A stretch of 32,849 bases of DNA from Cyclobacteriaceae bacterium. GTDB taxonomy: Bacteria; Bacteroidota; Bacteroidia; Cytophagales; Cyclobacteriaceae. Shown here one piece after another: positions 24,456 to 31,584 of this stretch. The stretch is from contig JALONI010000029.1 in NCBI GenBank assembly GCA_025455015.1, positions 1-32,849 on the forward strand, read 5' to 3'. The notes beneath the pieces are model-generated. The model was not told the origin of the DNA. It made no database searches and saw only the letters and a program-made list of their open reading frames with translations. The stretch's first letter is position 1, and each line of letters begins with the position of its first letter. The translations under genes and the position numbers were made by a program.

Positions 24456-24484
24456 AAAGCCGTGGTGTTTGCCACGGCTTTTTT
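24456..24484 (+). terminator. Rho-independent terminator of the small basic protein gene
   Basis: AAAGCCGTGG (24456-24465), six-base loop, CCACGGCTTT (24472-24481), a perfect 10-bp stem running into six T (24479-24484). The stop codon of the convergent phosphoesterase gene overlaps its right end. Confidence 0.9.
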
Positions 24485-25004
24485 ATTGCTGCCTGGTGGC
24501 GGGGGGCACTTCGCCTCGTTTTCCCAATTCAATGGCTTCCATGTTTTTGATTTGGCCCCGGGTTATCTCAAACCGCACAACTGTTTTTATCCGGTGGAAC
24601 CCGTGGTGGCCCGCAGCCCCGGGATTCACAAACAAGAAGCCGCGCACAGGGTCGCGCATGACTTTGAGTATGTGCGAGTGTCCGGCCACCAGCAAGTCGG
24701 GCTGGCGTTGCCGCAGGATCGTTTTCACGCGGGCGTTGTAGTGGGGTGGGCTCCCCGCAATGTGCGTCATCCACACGGTGAGCCCGTCCACTTCAAACCA
24801 CAGATCTTCGGGCAGGCAGGTCGTTAGTTCGCGGTCGTCAATATTGCCATAAACCGCTCGCACCGGCTTGAATGCCCGTAGCTGGTGCAGCACGTCCGCG
24901 TGGCCGATGTCGCCCGCATGCCACACCTCATCGCACATTTCAAAGTGCTGCTTAATTCGTTCATCCAAAAAGCTATGCGTGTCTGATAGCAATCCGATCT
25001 TCAT
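24483..25004 (-). CDS. YfcE/MJ0936-type metallophosphoesterase
   Basis: A 173-residue single-domain phosphodiesterase. Metal-site motifs in order: MKIGLLSDTH (D8, H10), HAGDIGH, YGNIDD (the GNxD/H position), THIAGSPP and the C-terminal GHSHILKV. Members hydrolyse model phosphodiesters and possibly cyclic nucleotides; no physiological substrate is established for this branch. The start is 6 bases after the helicase stop, so it is the last gene of the RMD1-HhH-helicase operon. The length is normal for the family. Confidence 0.88.
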   Translation of the reverse strand: MKIGLLSDTHSFLDERIKQHFEMCDEVWHAGDIGHADVLHQLRAFKPVRAVYGNIDDRELTTCLPEDLWFEVDGLTVWMTHIAGSPPHYNARVKTILRQRQPDLLVAGHSHILKVMRDPVRGFLFVNPGAAGHHGFHRIKTVVRFEITRGQIKNMEAIELGKRGEVPPATRQQ

Positions 25005-25010
25005 TGCGCG

Positions 25011-28000
25011 TCAGTCGTTGCCCAGTTTGCGTATCTCCCGCTGCAGGCGCTCGCGGTTGTTCCAGTAGTTGCGGCTGTAGCAAACATGGTATTTCCAGTG
25101 GTTGGCTTCGAGCAGCGTAGGCAAGATGGCGTGCCGTTCTTTGGGCGATAGCGACTGTTGGTAGTCGTCATCGTCTGTCAGCAAGATGGTGTGTGGCCGC
25201 TTGTTCTTCACCACGGTTAAATCCAAATGGGGCAGAAAACGATCATCATAGTACTCGTCTGCTGAGCTCCAAGCCATGATTCGGTCGCGCAACTTGGCCG
25301 AAGAGTGGGGCACCGATGCGGGCGGGGGCGCGTCCGTTCCTAACGACAGCGCATGCGCATAGCGCAGGTAGTCGCGCAGCAACTTTGGCCCCGGGTTTAT
25401 GGTACCCTCCACGGGTAACTGGTCGGGCAGGAGGCTGGCCACGACAATGATTTTTTTGCGGGCGCGGGTGATGGCCACGTTCAGTCGGTTTTCGCCACCG
25501 GCTACATTCAAACTGCCAAACTGAGCCTTGATTTTCCCCTGGTCATCGGGCCCGTAGCCCACCGAAAAGAGGATGATGTCGCGCTCATCGCCTTGCACGT
25601 TTTCGATGTTCTTGACAAAGAGTTGTTCCGGCCATGAGCGACCAGCCGCAGCAAAGGCCGCATCCAGATAGTCCATGATCAACTCTTGCTGCGGGGCGTT
25701 AAAAGTGACCACGCCCAGCGAGAGGTGAGGCTTGGTGTCCAGATAGTCAATGACCCAGCGGGTGATGGCTTTGGCTTCGGCTTCATTTTGCTGGTGGGCC
25801 CACATGCCCGCAACCTGAAAATACTCGATCGGCTTTTCGGGCGAGTGAAACGTTTGGCGATGTGGCAGCAGTGTCAATTTGCCTTCATAGAAATGGGTAT
25901 TGGAGAAGTGAATCAACGGAATGGACTCGCTTCGGTAGTGCCAGCGCAAACCGGTTTGCGGCAGGTAGCGGCTGCACAAGTCGAGAAGTGATTCGGTCTC
26001 CAGATCGGCATGTTCGTCCGCGTCATCCTGCCAGCGGATGCGATACAAGTCACCGGGTTTCAGTTGTTGCTTGTCGCCCGCTACCACCACCTGCCGGCCG
26101 CGGCACATGGCGGGCAGCCCGTGTTCGGCAAAGCATTGCGAGGCCTCGTCAAAGATTACGATGTCAAACAGCGGCTTCAGCGGGAAAATGGCGGACACCG
26201 ATTCGGGCGAGGCCAACCAGCACGGCACAAGCCGAAACACCTCATCCTCAAACTCCTGAAACACTTTGCGCAACGGCCATCGTTTCCGTTTTTTGGTTAC
26301 TTGATGAAGCAGCTCGCGGTAGGTGACGCGGTTGTTCAGGCGGTTGTATTCCAGGTTGTCGGTGATGGCCTCGCGTACGCGCAGGTGCACAATGTCTGTG
26401 CTGCCTTGCTGCTTTTGGGCGATGTGCTGGCGAAGCTCCTGTTCCATCAATGCCAATTTGCCGGACGAAACGAGTGTGAGAACGGGATGCTTGGTTTCGA
26501 TGTGGTCAATCCAGGCCAGGCGCAGGCTGTTCAAAAACAATTTTTCGATGACCTCTGCCTGCCACGAAGGCTCCTTCTCGGCCAGCCGGTCAATCAGCTC
26601 CTGTTCATCGCTGCTCAACGACCGCTTGAGCTTGTCGTACTCCACCAGCGCGTCAAAGTCCGTTTGCAGTTGTTCGCTGGCCAAACGGCCATAATCCGGT
26701 GTTGACAACGCCCGCTCGATTTGGGTAGGCGTAAAGAATTGGGCCCACGTTTTTTTGAGCGCGTGTGTTTGGTCAATGAAGGCAAGCAGTGTTTCAAAAT
26801 AATGGCGCCATTCTTCGAGCGAGTTGGGCGGTGTGCCCAAGGTGTGCCCCAGTTCGCGCAACGTATGGAACAGATTTTTTGCCTGAATGGCCCGCTGTTG
26901 ATCTTGCGCCCAATGTTGAAAGGCCAGCAGGTCGTAGGTCAGAGGCAAATCCACCAGCCATTTTTTTTCTTTCAGCTTGGACAGGTTGTGTTCCAGGTTG
27001 AGGCGGTTGTCCAGCTTGCTCTCCAAGGTGGAAAAGCCCACCGGGTTGTTTTGCAGGCCATTGGAAACCAAGGTGCGTGTAATCAGGATTTTGTCTTTCG
27101 AAAACAGTTCCCATCGCACCAACCCCCAAAGGCTCTTGCGCGCTTTCATGCTTCGCGTGAGGGCCAACTGGAATTGACCGAGGTGGGCACCTGCCACCGA
27201 AGTTTCCGGCCCGGGGTCGCGGTAGCAGTCGTTTACCACGCGCTCGATGTTGGACAGCCACAACGCGCTCGTTTCCTCTGCGTGCTCGTTGAGCATCTGT
27301 TGAAAATACGTGAACCGGGCAGGGCTATCGATCAGCGCCAGCATTTCTACGATGGCGGCCCTTCGCTGCATCAGATTTTCGCAGTCGGCCCAGCTCAGGT
27401 TGATGCCGATCAGTTGGCGCACGGGCTCATACACGCGCACGAACTGGAGCGGCAACTGCTCCATGGCTTCCTGCAACTGCCTGCGCTGCGAGGGCTGGTA
27501 GTGGGCAAATGACAGGCGTTCGCGCCACGGATGCCCATCGTGCTCCAGGCGTGCCGCGAAAAAGCAATACCGCGAAAGTATTTTGGCAAAGGCCGTTTGC
27601 CGGTCGGTGGGCCAGTGCTCGTATTGTTGCTTTACGTTGATGTGGGGCTCATCAGGCGAGCTGGTCAGGTACAGCGACTTGATGCTGGTGCCGCATTCGC
27701 GTTCATCAAACAGCGCATTTTTCAATTCTGTCAGTTCTTCGGTCAGGTGCGCCATTTGCCGGCAGGCCTGATAAAAATTTCGCTCCAGCAGAATGGCGTC
27801 CGATTGATTGTTCAGCGTTTTGTATTCGTCCACGCGCTCGATCTGGTGCGCCAATTGGCCAAACAACTCGGTGCGGTCGTCAATAAAGTCGTGCACCAAC
27901 CCTGCGTAGGCATGTAACCGTTGGCTTTTGAGCCGCTCATACACCACGTCCAGCGCGGCCCTTTTTTGGCATACGATCAATACGCGCTTTCGGTTGGCCA

Positions 28001-28997
28001 TTGCATCGGTGGCCAAGTTGGCAATGAGTTGCGATTTGCCTGTGCCGGGCGGGCCCTGCACGACAATGGAGCGCCCTGTTTTTACCTGGTGGAGGGCGTG
28101 CTCCTGCCACGCATCCATGGCAAAAACGGTATGCACGTCTTCGTCCCGTACCTTGCGCTCCTCACCCGAGGGAGCGTGCTGTTCAAAAATCCGTTCCACG
28201 GACGTGTTGCCTTGTTCGAGCAGTTGCACGTAGTCGGGTATGAGGTAAGAACCCGCCCGCGGAAAAACACCCAGGGCGGCTTCGGGAAAAAGCTTCAATC
28301 CCCCTTCCATCGTCTCTGCGTCAAATTCATCGCGCGTGTACGCGCGAAAGGCGGTTAGCTCATCGCGGAAATTGTCCGTGTTGAAATGCACTTCGATGCG
28401 TGCTTTCTGCAACGCTTGGTAAATGGCCGTTCGAAATACCGTGCTGTCGCGGTCCACCTCATCAAAATCTTCCTCCAGCAGTTCTTCGCTCAGCGTGACG
28501 CGGTGGTAGTGCGCATAAGCAAGCAGGAATGTTTTGTTGAAACCCACTTTTTGATCGGCCCGCGGTTCGAGCACCCATTCATGGTTTCGTAAGGTAAGCG
28601 AAACGGGGAAGAGCAGCAGCGGGCAGCGCACCCGTGTGCCATCGGCAAACTTACCGCGAACAAACGGCCAGCCCACGTGTAAATCGTGCGAGCCATGCTC
28701 ATCAAACAGGAATTGTCCCAGCCGCTGCAGGTGTTTTAGTTTTTGACTGGCCACGGTAGCCGCGGGCAAATGCGCATCCGCCAACGGGCAAATGGCTTTG
28801 GCTTTTTCCGCTATCAGCGATTCGATAATCTTGAACGAAGTTTCTTTTTTGAGTTGGCTGAGCTCGTGCAAATCCAAGTACTGGCGTGCGGTGAGCCGCG
28901 GCATGAACAACATGCGGTTGCCGGCTGCCAAATTGGTTAGCCGGTGCAAATACTGGCGCAGTACGTTGGGCGGTTGGGGGCGTTGCACGGGTGTCAT
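25011..28997 (-). CDS. Large SF1 (Upf1-like) helicase with DUF4011-like N-terminus and degenerate nuclease-like tail
   Basis: A 1328-residue protein. The N-terminus holds a LRQYLHRLTNLAAGNRMLF segment like the DUF4011 family of giant helicases. Walker A is GPPGTGKS at 315-322. The Walker B equivalent is FDEASQCF at ~949, after a ~620-residue mostly helical insertion, then VVVAGDKQQLKPGD (motif III) and ENVQGDERD plus LNVAITRARKK (motifs V and VI, ~1170). The last ~60 residues (TILLTDDDDYQQSLSPKER, then WKYHVCYSRNYWNN) align by eye with the Vsr-like nuclease tail of such helicases (pattern CDG-YH-RDR-W-STDW), but catalytic residues look altered. It probably unwinds or translocates on nucleic acid. 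ATG 28997 overlaps the HhH stop by 4 bases; a TTG-type extension to 29108 lies inside the HhH gene and is rejected. Confidence 0.83.
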   Translation of the reverse strand: MTPVQRPQPPNVLRQYLHRLTNLAAGNRMLFMPRLTARQYLDLHELSQLKKETSFKIIESLIAEKAKAICPLADAHLPAATVASQKLKHLQRLGQFLFDEHGSHDLHVGWPFVRGKFADGTRVRCPLLLFPVSLTLRNHEWVLEPRADQKVGFNKTFLLAYAHYHRVTLSEELLEEDFDEVDRDSTVFRTAIYQALQKARIEVHFNTDNFRDELTAFRAYTRDEFDAETMEGGLKLFPEAALGVFPRAGSYLIPDYVQLLEQGNTSVERIFEQHAPSGEERKVRDEDVHTVFAMDAWQEHALHQVKTGRSIVVQGPPGTGKSQLIANLATDAMANRKRVLIVCQKRAALDVVYERLKSQRLHAYAGLVHDFIDDRTELFGQLAHQIERVDEYKTLNNQSDAILLERNFYQACRQMAHLTEELTELKNALFDERECGTSIKSLYLTSSPDEPHINVKQQYEHWPTDRQTAFAKILSRYCFFAARLEHDGHPWRERLSFAHYQPSQRRQLQEAMEQLPLQFVRVYEPVRQLIGINLSWADCENLMQRRAAIVEMLALIDSPARFTYFQQMLNEHAEETSALWLSNIERVVNDCYRDPGPETSVAGAHLGQFQLALTRSMKARKSLWGLVRWELFSKDKILITRTLVSNGLQNNPVGFSTLESKLDNRLNLEHNLSKLKEKKWLVDLPLTYDLLAFQHWAQDQQRAIQAKNLFHTLRELGHTLGTPPNSLEEWRHYFETLLAFIDQTHALKKTWAQFFTPTQIERALSTPDYGRLASEQLQTDFDALVEYDKLKRSLSSDEQELIDRLAEKEPSWQAEVIEKLFLNSLRLAWIDHIETKHPVLTLVSSGKLALMEQELRQHIAQKQQGSTDIVHLRVREAITDNLEYNRLNNRVTYRELLHQVTKKRKRWPLRKVFQEFEDEVFRLVPCWLASPESVSAIFPLKPLFDIVIFDEASQCFAEHGLPAMCRGRQVVVAGDKQQLKPGDLYRIRWQDDADEHADLETESLLDLCSRYLPQTGLRWHYRSESIPLIHFSNTHFYEGKLTLLPHRQTFHSPEKPIEYFQVAGMWAHQQNEAEAKAITRWVIDYLDTKPHLSLGVVTFNAPQQELIMDYLDAAFAAAGRSWPEQLFVKNIENVQGDERDIILFSVGYGPDDQGKIKAQFGSLNVAGGENRLNVAITRARKKIIVVASLLPDQLPVEGTINPGPKLLRDYLRYAHALSLGTDAPPPASVPHSSAKLRDRIMAWSSADEYYDDRFLPHLDLTVVKNKRPHTILLTDDDDYQQSLSPKERHAILPTLLEANHWKYHVCYSRNYWNNRERLQREIRKLGND

Positions 28998-29905
28998 TCG
29001 GCCGATACCGTAAGGTAAGGTTTTATCCGGTGAAAGGTGGCGGAGTCGAGCTGTTTTAATTTCAGTAAATCGTTGACAGACGCAAACTTGGTATGTTGAA
29101 ATCGCCAAGTGGTTATAGCCTTCGCCAAAGCGGGCCGTATGTACGGCAGTTTTTTCAGCTCCTGCTCGGTGGCGGTGTTAAGGTTGATTTGCAGCGGTTG
29201 AAAAGACGCCTCGATAAAACTGCGCTCGCGCAGGGCGGTGATCGTAGCGCTGTCCAACCCATACACTTCGTACAATTGCCCGGGGCTCACAAATCCGCCC
29301 AAGCGGGTTCGGTAGCGCAAAATGCGCGAAGACAATACCGGCCCAAGGCCGTTGACGCTGAGCAGTTGGAGGCTGTCGCACGTGTTCAGGTCAAATCGCT
29401 CGTGGCGTGCGGGCGGTTTATTCTCGCGCGTGTGGGAAGATGCCACCGGAGGTGTTTTTTCACGCGTGCGCGCAAACGTCATCCACGGGCTAAGTTGCGC
29501 CACGCGGGCCGTGTCAATGCCATAGATATTTTTGACGTCCGCTGCCGAGCGGAAAGTTCCCCCTTTGCTGCGATAGTTGATGATGCGTTGGGCTACACGT
29601 TCGGCAAAGCCCAGCCGTTGCCAGTCACCCAGGGTAGCCGTGTTGGGGTCAAACGAAAACGTTTCGGGGGGCAGGGTGGAAGGTGCGTCCGGATCGGCAT
29701 CCGACTCTGCGTAGATCACGCCCCATAAGCTGTCGAGCTTGCGTTGATCTGCGGTGTGGTTCACCGGCTGCCGCACCCACCACGCGCGGTACAACGGTTC
29801 GGAAAAAAGAGCCAGCAAAATAAATGGAATGAGCAGCAGAAAGCCGTTGGTTTGGCCTTGCGAAAACCCGAAAAAAGCGCGTATCCAAGTTCGAATTTTC
29901 CTCAT
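28994..29905 (-). CDS. Membrane-anchored triple helix-hairpin-helix (ComEA-like) DNA-binding protein
   Basis: A 303-residue protein with a basic N-terminus, one transmembrane helix (~20-38: GFLLLIPFILLALF), a linker, and three helix-hairpin-helix repeats at about 84-130, 168-215 and 238-285. Each repeat has the form FDxNTA..L..L.G....A..I..YR...G.F.S..DL..VYGLD. HhH modules of this ComEA type bind duplex DNA without sequence preference. The anchor and the presumed extracytoplasmic location would suit DNA uptake, but a cytoplasmic orientation is possible because the stretch before the helix is strongly basic. The stop overlaps the helicase ATG by 4 bases, implying tight co-expression. The RMD1 gene is 30 bases upstream. 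Confidence 0.83.
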   Translation of the reverse strand: MRKIRTWIRAFFGFSQGQTNGFLLLIPFILLALFSEPLYRAWWVRQPVNHTADQRKLDSLWGVIYAESDADPDAPSTLPPETFSFDPNTATLGDWQRLGFAERVAQRIINYRSKGGTFRSAADVKNIYGIDTARVAQLSPWMTFARTREKTPPVASSHTRENKPPARHERFDLNTCDSLQLLSVNGLGPVLSSRILRYRTRLGGFVSPGQLYEVYGLDSATITALRERSFIEASFQPLQINLNTATEQELKKLPYIRPALAKAITTWRFQHTKFASVNDLLKLKQLDSATFHRIKPYLTVSAE

Positions 29906-29935
29906 AGATGGTCACACCGATCAGGCGTATGGCGC

Positions 29936-30727
29936 TCAACTCCACAGCTTTGAGATGATCAAATCAAAAACTTCCACTAAAATCAGCACAATAATAATCA
30001 GTTCCAACAGATTGCTCTCGCGCTGGTGCGAGATCTCGCGGAACACACTCAGGTTGTCTTTGATGATTCGCAGCATGTATTCGATTTCGCTAAAGCGGGT
30101 TCGGAGATCAAAGTGTTTGATCAACCCCTTGTGCAATGTATCCAGGTATTCGTTGTCCCAGACTAACTCCGGGGCGTCAAAAATGTAGATGTTTTCGGCA
30201 ATGTCGTTTTGCGTGTTCAGGGCTTTGCCGATGAATTTCATCATGTTGGTGCGGCTGATGCTAAGCTTGCCGGTAGTTTCGAGATTGCGCGTAAACACCT
30301 TGATCTGCGTCAGCAGGTTTTCGGATGTCTCGTGGTAGGAGTCCAGCGCTACGGATTGAGCCAAGTTCAGCATGGCAATGCGGATCACCTTGTCATCGAG
30401 GTGCGATACGTTTACCTGGTCAAATTCGAACTCGGGTTCTTCGGCATCCACAATGCTGATGTCGTGGTCGTCACGCAACCACTGTGCCATCGGGTTTCTC
30501 AACTGGGGCTGCGCCAATTTTACTGCGTACCGGATTTCTTCTTCGGTATGCCCCGAAAAAACGATCACGCCATAGTTGAAGTAGTATTGGTAGCGGTAGG
30601 TTCCAAAGCCGTAAAACAGCTCGGCCGAGCTGTCGGCCAAAGGCTTGATTTCCAAAAACGATTTCATGCCCTTGATGTCCAATTGATTGGATACCACCAG
30701 GGCCGAGAGTCTCAATGTCTTTTCCAT
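29936..30727 (-). CDS. RMD1/DUF155 family membrane protein
   Basis: A 263-residue protein with the DUF155 fold: a sheet-rich N-terminal half including FGTYRYQYYFNYGVIVFSG, a helical C-terminal half with FTRNLETTGKLSISRTNMMK, and a C-terminal transmembrane helix (~240-258: LLELIIIVLILVEVFDLI). In yeast RMD1 and its relatives are mitochondrial or nuclear-division-related and hold membrane-attached assemblies; the bacterial role is unknown. First gene of a minus-strand operon with the HhH protein, helicase and phosphoesterase. A perfect TAAATTTG lies 10 bases upstream of the ATG. The C-terminal anchor suggests attachment to the inner membrane. Confidence 0.85.
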   Translation of the reverse strand: MEKTLRLSALVVSNQLDIKGMKSFLEIKPLADSSAELFYGFGTYRYQYYFNYGVIVFSGHTEEEIRYAVKLAQPQLRNPMAQWLRDDHDISIVDAEEPEFEFDQVNVSHLDDKVIRIAMLNLAQSVALDSYHETSENLLTQIKVFTRNLETTGKLSISRTNMMKFIGKALNTQNDIAENIYIFDAPELVWDNEYLDTLHKGLIKHFDLRTRFSEIEYMLRIIKDNLSVFREISHQRESNLLELIIIVLILVEVFDLIISKLWS

Positions 30728-30737
30728 ACCGTTCAGC

Positions 30738-30745
30738 CAAATTTA
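30738..30745 (-). promoter_or_regulatory. -7 element of the RMD1-HhH-helicase operon
   Basis: TAAATTTG on the minus strand matches TAnnTTTG, ending 10 bases before ATG 30727. The leader would be only ~5 bases. A TTG upstream has a 14-base spacer, too short for a normal -33. Confidence 0.4.
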
Positions 30746-30810
30746 CGTTTTATTCACACCAAGCGAAAATGCGGGTTGGGTCGAATTGTGTATTATTGCG
30801 ACTTCTAAAA

Positions 30811-31584
30811 ATGATTGCCATGAGACGAATGTCGGGGTTGCTGTTGGTGTGGATGATGAGCCCACTGCTGTGCTGGGGTTGGGGTGCTACAGGGCATCGT
30901 GCCAGCGGGCATTTGGCGGAGCAATTGCTGACTTCCAAGGCCCGTAAAAAAGTGAAGGCATTGTTACACGGTCATTCGCTGGCCATGGTGAGCACGTGGT
31001 TGGATGAAGTACGCTCAGATTCCACGTACGACTACACGGGCGATTGGCATTGGACCACGATACCGGATGGCAAGCGCTATGAAGACGTAGCCGCCAACCC
31101 GGATGGCAAGGCCGTGACGATGGTGGAGTTAATTATCCAAAAATTGAAACAGGGGGGATTACCCGCCCGGCAGGAAGAAGAATATGTGAAGGCACTCATC
31201 CACCTGGTGGCAGATTTACATCAGCCCTGCCACGTGGGCAATGGACTGGACCGCGGTGCCAACGATGTGAAAGTAAAATGGTTTGGCCGCGACTCCAACT
31301 TGCACCGCGTGTGGGACAGCCACATGATTGACGACACCCAATTGAGTTATACCGAACTGGCCCAATCGTTCGTGATGGTGGACAAGGCCACGCTTGCGCA
31401 GTGGAAAAACGCCAGCGTACGAGACTGGGCCCACGAGTCGATGACGTACCGCCCGGCCGTGTACGCCATTGGCGATGGCAACCTCAGCTACCAATACAGC
31501 TACCGGAATTTCAGCACGGTGCAACTGCGGCTGCTGCAATCATCGGTTCGCCTAGCGCATATTCTCAACCAGATTTATGGGTAA
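30811..31584 (+). CDS. Secreted S1/P1-type nuclease
   Basis: A 257-residue precursor of the S1/P1 single-strand nuclease family, which uses three zinc ions. The signal peptide (MRRMSGLLLVWMMSPLLC) should be cut before WGWGATGHRASG, so the mature N-terminal Trp can bind zinc, as is characteristic of the family. Other ligands visible: H in ATGHR, D in WLDEVRSD, H in GDWHW, both H in HLVADLHQPCHVG, and D in GLDRGANDV; WDSHMIDD also fits. The enzyme would degrade RNA or single-stranded DNA for phosphate or nucleotide scavenging in the periplasm or outside the cell. The frame opens at 30715, but the signal peptide favours ATG 30811 (or 30820). Its promoter is divergent from the RMD1 operon. Confidence 0.88.
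   Translation: MIAMRRMSGLLLVWMMSPLLCWGWGATGHRASGHLAEQLLTSKARKKVKALLHGHSLAMVSTWLDEVRSDSTYDYTGDWHWTTIPDGKRYEDVAANPDGKAVTMVELIIQKLKQGGLPARQEEEYVKALIHLVADLHQPCHVGNGLDRGANDVKVKWFGRDSNLHRVWDSHMIDDTQLSYTELAQSFVMVDKATLAQWKNASVRDWAHESMTYRPAVYAIGDGNLSYQYSYRNFSTVQLRLLQSSVRLAHILNQIYG

Follow-up and report, generated by a model that had tools for sequence, protein, structure and literature searches.

The window analysed here, 32,849 nucleotides from a Cyclobacteriaceae bacterium (positions 1 to 32,849 of contig JALONI010000029.1, assembly GCA_025455015.1), carries on its minus strand a gene for a helix-hairpin-helix (HhH) protein, P0002, directly followed by a gene for a large superfamily 1 (SF1) helicase, P0001. 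We favour, at a probability a little below one half (about 0.48), the reading that these are two separable DNA-handling genes, a ComEA-like uptake receptor and a cytoplasmic DNA-processing translocase, which are co-expressed and can each stand alone. These two genes make up the unit, if there is one: a receptor of known type, paired with a helicase-nuclease of known kind in a new, compact core version. A first-pass annotation had proposed a four-gene membrane machine at this site, and that proposal does not hold.

The pair is the tightest part of a compact gene row. As first described, four minus-strand open reading frames (ORFs) are packed with spacings of 30 (RMD1 to HhH), -4 (HhH to helicase) and 6 bases (helicase to phosphoesterase). 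The overlap is an ATGA in which the helicase start shares four bases with the HhH stop. Homologues in the 98 Cyclobacteriaceae genomes of our family set mostly align from about residue 11 of the helicase on, which favours a start at 28997 over a longer TTG-initiated frame. Within this family set, helicase matches counted at E 1e-20 occur in 95 genomes (weak in G038, 1e-63, and G049, 1e-42; some hits are contig fragments) and HhH matches in 96. In 58 of the 95, HhH precedes the helicase on the same strand, the gap by match ends being -1 to 809 bases (median 53; at most 131 in 55 of the 58). The other 37 genomes were not seen paired, some of their helicases lying at contig ends.

The pairing recurs outside the family. 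A scan of genome contigs gave 335 helicase relatives, and the best 80 of them were taken as named loci; by their record titles these 80 belong to Cytophagales families, to unplaced Bacteroidetes and, in a single case, to Thalassovita. Two of them (L124 and L126) gave no helicase ORF, leaving 78 loci for analysis, 8 of which have less than 1000 bases upstream. By ORF calls, HhH lies within 400 bases upstream in 27 of the 78 and within 20 bases in 17. L109 is an additional pair, its match start leaving 2 bases between the genes though the ORF call starts later. The 27 paired loci come from several Cyclobacteriaceae, from unplaced bins, from Fulvivirga, Ekhidna and Agaribacillus, and from three Hymenobacteraceae (one each of Rufibacter, Adhaeribacter and Pontibacter). 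The first-pass annotation had made its case depend on co-occurrence beyond close relatives, and the pair is indeed present in some Hymenobacteraceae; against this, HhH is not found within 400 bases upstream in 51 of the 78 named loci, 6 of which have less than 1000 bases of upstream sequence. In four other Pontibacter, HhH lies 2.1 to 2.7 kb upstream of the helicase with opposite-strand genes between them, and no upstream HhH was seen in the remaining Hymenobacteraceae loci (one Rufibacter and four Pontibacter). An SDR gene takes the place of HhH upstream of the helicase in the Echinicola/Algoriphagus clade, as does TerC in the five Spirosomaceae-type loci tested (L094, L116, L118, L121 and L136). 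The answer to whether helicase homologues mostly sit beside unrelated genes, which had been named as a point that would speak against a joint system, is therefore mixed.

Where the pair exists, it outlives its surroundings, since HemA and GldH/RicT are retained in the 4-kb flank of only 7 and 3 of the 27 paired named loci, respectively. A FastTree phylogeny was built from 97 of 151 motor sequences, retaining the named loci, the window and 18 rows labelled Hhe-like for their lower profile score (of these 18, the protein of L054, which also bears the handle L229, was compared with NCBIfam); the program gave a long-branch warning for L045. On this tree the paired state requires nine changes, gain or loss, over the core rows. 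The Thalassovita-labelled contig (L114), nominally proteobacterial, carries a helicase that adjoins a Flammeovirgaceae row and is probably mis-binned.

P0002 has the architecture first ascribed to it, one membrane helix and three ComEA-type modules. Its strongest hydrophobic stretch is an N-terminal helix at about residues 21-39, and the modules span residues 83-142, 169-228 and 239-298, in agreement with three HHH_3 stretches in Pfam (150.8 bits, above the cut-off). The protein passes TIGR00426, the model of the HhH repeat region (72.7 bits, cut-off 53.1), and misses the cut-off of the comE model TIGR01259 (94.7 bits against 152.35); we therefore call it ComEA-like and not ComEA. For 25 of 25 sequences, hydropathy and charge bias predict an N-in/C-out topology, which would place the modules outside the cytoplasm. 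This prediction counts against the membrane-tethered capture-and-unwinding machine of the first-pass annotation, because an ATP-driven helicase would not be expected to work in the periplasm.

A protein of this kind is known from natural transformation. In a transposon screen of Riemerella anatipestifer, a predicted periplasmic protein with three HhH domains was essential for the process, according to the part of the report available (PMC8459023). That protein, RA0C_RS02645, resembles P0002 in its three HhH domains and its periplasmic prediction, and its HhH domain at 236-301 parallels the third module here; the available portion of its description names no helicase partner (PMC8459023). ComEC is matched in 56 of 60 family genomes, including that of the window. 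In the phylum sample, each of the 49 listed genomes belonging to the same class or a closer group has an HhH relative, two of these relatives being weak or partial, and the order of the listing suggests that no sampled genome of the class lacks one; beyond the class they are weak or none (84 of 198 genomes overall).

Of 26 HhH loci from beyond the family, 21 encode three modules, two encode four and three encode two. All 21 paired loci have three modules and all 20 unlinked Echinicola-type loci have two. The first module is the one lost in these 20 Echinicola/Algoriphagus-type loci, which were examined with the helicase elsewhere (L209-L226, L097 and L098). Among four other unlinked loci, three modules are found in L080, L228 and L096 and two in L227; in L096 (genome G045) the helicase stands in the same SDR context as in the Echinicola-type clade, yet HhH keeps three modules. 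Module loss was considered as a sign of co-evolution and set aside, as it may be a single event and three of the four other unlinked loci keep three modules.

The partner is, as first called, an SF1 helicase overlapping the HhH stop, with AAA_11 (68.3 bits), AAA_12 (61.3) and DUF4011 (25.4) each above the Pfam cut-off. The first-pass annotation had missed both its DUF4011 domain and its C-terminal nuclease-fold domain. DUF4011 (PF13195) is found at E 0.01 in 36 of 36 helicase homologues, an alignment of 36 of the 37 helicases of the gene contexts with L061 omitted, and the window's domain alone scores 29.2 bits (cut-off 22.2). The AlphaFold2 model of the N-terminal domain has a mean pLDDT (predicted local distance difference test) of 84.3, with residues 31-240 in blocks of mean pLDDT of at least 90. 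It gave no Foldseek match at E 0.001 and a best Z of 2.3 among the PDB chains compared, and this missing solved relative does not show a new fold. The motifs GPPGTGKSQ, DExSQ, GDxxQL, HYRS, QGDE and NVA..R, which we take to be those of an SF1 motor, have key residues that are invariant or at least 90 per cent conserved in the 36 homologues. The nearest solved relatives of the motor by sequence are Sen1, Upf1, SMUBP2 and Dna2 (E 1e-18 to about 3e-14), and the likeness is confined to the motor region. Dna2 likewise joins an SF1 motor to a nuclease.

At the C-terminus, the nuclease family REase_MTES_1575 (PF18741) scores 18.9 bits in the window protein, short of the cut-off of 38.2, and is matched by 30 of the 36 helicase members at E up to 1 (best 2.3e-9). 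In fold comparison, the model of this domain resembles I-Bth0305I first (Z 9.1, root-mean-square deviation 2.7, 88 residues aligned), then NGO0050 (Z 8.2), VRR_NUC (6.7) and Hjc (6.0), while a plain Foldseek search gave no match at E 0.001. Four residues, D1259, D1275, D1276 and K1286, are invariant in the 36 homologues. MTES_1575 is described, in the available part of the source, as a Vsr-type domain found with an SF1 helicase and a winged helix-turn-helix overlapping DUF3320 (PMC3710099). By sequence and model, P0001 would be a core variant of a known helicase-nuclease kind, compactly joining DUF4011, the SF1 motor and a modified MTES_1575-like domain.

In the favoured reading, HhH would be anchored in the inner membrane by its N-terminus, as the predicted topology has it, would hold double-stranded DNA in the periplasm with its three modules and would pass it to ComEC for natural transformation, a role taken by analogy from Riemerella. 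The helicase would be a cytoplasmic SF1 translocase with a nuclease-fold tail that moves along single-stranded or broken DNA and may trim or clear incoming and damaged DNA, with or without cleavage. Judged from the spacing, the pairing would give co-expression on a shared transcript and not a physical machine, because outside Cytophagales HhH relatives are found with no helicase, and several clades keep the helicase at a distance from HhH. The operon first read as one system is accordingly kept for the tight HhH-helicase pair of the 58 family genomes and given up for RMD1 and the phosphoesterase. Given that HhH is also found where there is no helicase, its function in general probably does not depend on the helicase.

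Several observations weigh against this reading. Conserved order need not mean function, for other gene orders are conserved around these genes as well: of 37 contexts, 16 have GldH or RicT as direct neighbour of the helicase, 12 of the 51 unpaired named loci have GldH/RicT in the flank, and HemA immediately adjoins HhH in 14 of 25 HhH contexts, whether these are paired or not. Two family genomes (G010 and G029) have HhH and ComEC with no helicase match at E 1e-20, and HhH is present in sampled class members outside the order that lack a full-length helicase. Conversely, the four family genomes with no ComEC match (G014, G048, G051 and G054), in which assembly gaps are possible, all carry the pair. 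Orthology of P0002 and RA0C_RS02645 was judged by the published architecture, as far as the source gives it, and not by alignment (PMC8459023). No paper was found that names natural transformation and Cyclobacteriaceae together. The nuclease site is a further difficulty. The catalytic residues of the MTES_1575 nuclease fold are an aspartate and those of the motif E-x-D-G...H. Compared with the ProA-type protein of L230, P0001 keeps the first aspartate and the aspartate of E-x-D-G and has the glutamate and the histidine replaced, which makes its nuclease activity uncertain; the ProA-type L229 is also without this glutamate.

The distribution of the helicase bears on a second explanation. Within Cytophagales the helicase belongs to the core genes and is immobile. 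It was matched in 101 of 146 genomes of an order sample at E 1e-60, at least one of them (G584) a weak Hhe-like case, and in 61 of 392 genomes of a phylum sample at E 1e-20; a full-length helicase was not found outside the order in these 392 genomes, where partial matches lie inside frames of about 600 to 2030 residues. It could then serve general genome maintenance as a Dna2-like helicase-nuclease acting at stalled forks or in resection, standing behind HhH by an accident of gene order. Its immobility and near universality in the family, its persistence when unlinked from HhH, its nearest solved relatives and neighbours such as HemA, GldH, RicT/PSP1, PurD, RecQ, SDR and TerC are all consistent with such a role. 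Its divergence speaks against this role. In the same locus pairs, helicase identity is 41.6 per cent where RecQ reaches 70.0, and 41.4 where PurD reaches 60.3; in degree of conservation the helicase ranks below RecQ, RicT and PurD and above HhH and GldH. That no full-length relative was found outside the order in the 392 genomes sampled and that the HhH pairing recurs in two families also argue against it, and we regard this explanation as somewhat unlikely. A convergent GldH/RicT-PurD-RecQ block, complete or partial, lies downstream of the helicase in both main clades (L068, L069, L076-L078, L081-L087 and L089-L091).

The helicase also has named anti-phage relatives. Its best curated match is ProA (NCBIfam NF058533), at 526.4 bits with the cut-off of 1500 missed; three other core members score 457.2 to 553.7 bits and the controls L230 and L229 score 1618.7 and 2004.1. 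DUF4011, the SF1 motor and an MTES_1575-type domain follow in the same order in both, helicase residues 264-1323 aligning to positions 620-1700 of the 1903 in the model. By the match ends, the helicase is without about 350 N-terminal and 200 C-terminal model positions. At E 1e-4, P0001 and two further core members gave no match to DUF3320, which follows the nuclease in L229 and L230. Unlike ProA, the helicase here is core and immobile. Hhe (NCBIfam NF042953; PADLOC PDLC02194) is likewise a DUF4011 anti-phage helicase, and its cut-off of 2000 bits is missed at 339.5. PADLOC PDC-S37 (PDLC05009), a model shown without a cut-off, aligns at 489.8 bits its positions 261-1335 of 1550 with residues 259-1323 and leaves about 215 C-terminal positions unmatched. 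In the tree, the core helicases form one branch apart from the 18 Hhe/ProA-like rows (SH support 100), and genome G030 carries both a true ProA-type protein (L230) and a core helicase. One Hhe/ProA-like helicase (L231:2144-6553) ends in a GreA/GreB C-terminal domain, an unusual fusion. A DUF4011 gene of Pseudomonas aeruginosa is described, in the accessible part of the report, as core, present in every isolate and next to the defence hotspot cDHS1 (PMC10250203). Compared by that description only, it is core like the helicase but flanks a defence hotspot (PMC10250203). In the literature on ProA, Hhe and PDC-S37, judged by title or the start of the abstract, no paper describes the HhH-helicase gene pair. 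With a receptor of known competence type and a helicase with such relatives, the earlier term 'new system' is too strong.

Given these likenesses, the helicase might be an immobile restriction protein directed against phages or plasmids, in effect an innate ProA/Hhe. The shared DUF4011, SF1 and MTES_1575-type parts and the ProA and PDC-S37 scores speak for this, but the curated ProA and Hhe cut-offs are missed, DUF3320 is unmatched and the distribution is not patchy. Nor do the surroundings, among them HemA, GldH, RicT/PSP1, PurD, RecQ, SDR and TerC, suggest defence. We scanned 128 neighbour proteins from 33 of the 36 loci, the nearest two per side with HhH and proteins below 100 or above 900 residues excluded; at E 1e-5 they matched 13 PADLOC families, with 1 to 8 proteins per family, most strongly PDC-M37B (1 protein, 5.9e-40), DolB (1, 4.4e-29) and mad2 (8, 7.4e-21). 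With these few putative defence matches, and with a helicase that does not stand among defence genes in the contexts read, a defence island, which the first-pass annotation had suggested looking for, is not supported. No relative was found in one viral-contig scan with a single protein, a scan of weak sensitivity. A restriction role thus seems doubtful. Still less probable is a composite in which a ProA/Hhe-type helicase-nuclease was taken up by Cytophagales, fixed as a core gene and wired to the uptake receptor as an entry checkpoint. Such a checkpoint would inspect, degrade or process DNA arriving via ComEA/ComEC, balancing uptake against foreign DNA.

The close or overlapping spacing with a ComEA-like gene could also mean that the helicase does the work of ComFA, the motor that pulls transforming single strands into the cytoplasm. 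Against this, ComFA belongs to the SF2 helicases. Riemerella, which lies outside Cytophagales, transforms, yet a full-length helicase was not found outside the order in our sample, and no pairing was seen in 37 of the 95 family genomes, where some of the helicases lie at contig ends; we consider this role very improbable.

The two outer genes of the row are neighbours and not members (Table 1). The first gene was correctly read as a membrane protein of the RMD1/DUF155 family (PF02582, 106.6 bits, cut-off 27), with its strongest hydrophobic stretch C-terminal at residues 240-258. RMD1 is matched in 18 of the 98 family genomes and adjoins HhH in one, that of the window; in 7 of the 17 others it is encoded on the same strand at a distance of about 3 to 12 kb upstream. 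Several relatives have it ahead of or beside genes for an N-formylglutamate amidohydrolase, a GCS2 ligase, a C39-type peptidase and an ATP-grasp protein of RLAN/RimK type, possibly a small-peptide or glutamyl-ligation cluster; some of these genes lie near RMD1 in L060, L062, L064, L065 and L080. A search of the window's genome (96 per cent complete, 154 contigs), run without a positive control, did not find the RLAN/RimK gene; this fits a local loss bringing RMD1 beside HhH. The YfcE-type phosphoesterase is clearly assigned (Metallophos_2, 120.1 bits, above the Pfam cut-off; TIGR00040, 69.7 bits, cut-off 56.25), and no homologue was found in 40 other contexts (36 with helicase) or the 80 named loci within flank reach. 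Local gene loss or rearrangement would account for both neighbours. The four-gene order was not seen in any other genome examined, and the four-gene machine, which had close spacing in its favour, is rejected as scarcely credible given the single RMD1 adjacency, the phosphoesterase confined to the window among these contexts and the predicted placement of HhH and helicase on opposite membrane sides. Head to head with RMD1 stands an S1/P1 nuclease gene (30715-31584, plus strand); its cluster, c27, is also represented in L080, by a gene facing away from RMD1, and in L067, by one next to HemA.

Table 1. Genes of the compact row and helicase domains, in window positions.
Feature	Coordinates	Strand	Description	Assessment
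RMD1/DUF155 protein	29936..30727	-	263 aa, hydrophobic C-terminal helix	judged outside the unit
HhH protein (P0002)	28994..29905	-	303 aa, ComEA-like DNA receptor (putative); N-terminal helix and three HhH modules	
Helicase (P0001)	25011..28997	-	1328 aa; DUF4011, Upf1/Dna2-like SF1 motor interrupted by a large insert, MTES_1575-like C-terminal domain	
DUF4011-containing N-terminal helicase domain	28122..28997	-	residues 1-292	
C-terminal nuclease-fold domain of helicase	25014..25415	-	residues 1195-1328	
YfcE-type phosphoesterase	24483..25004	-	173 aa	judged outside the unit

Much of a bacterial order thus carries a core gene with phage-defence relatives whose recurrent genetic partner is the gene of a DNA-uptake receptor. 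Should this link prove functional, it would illustrate how a helicase of defence type turned into a permanent component of the cell, and it would supply transformation in Bacteroidota with a missing cytoplasmic actor.

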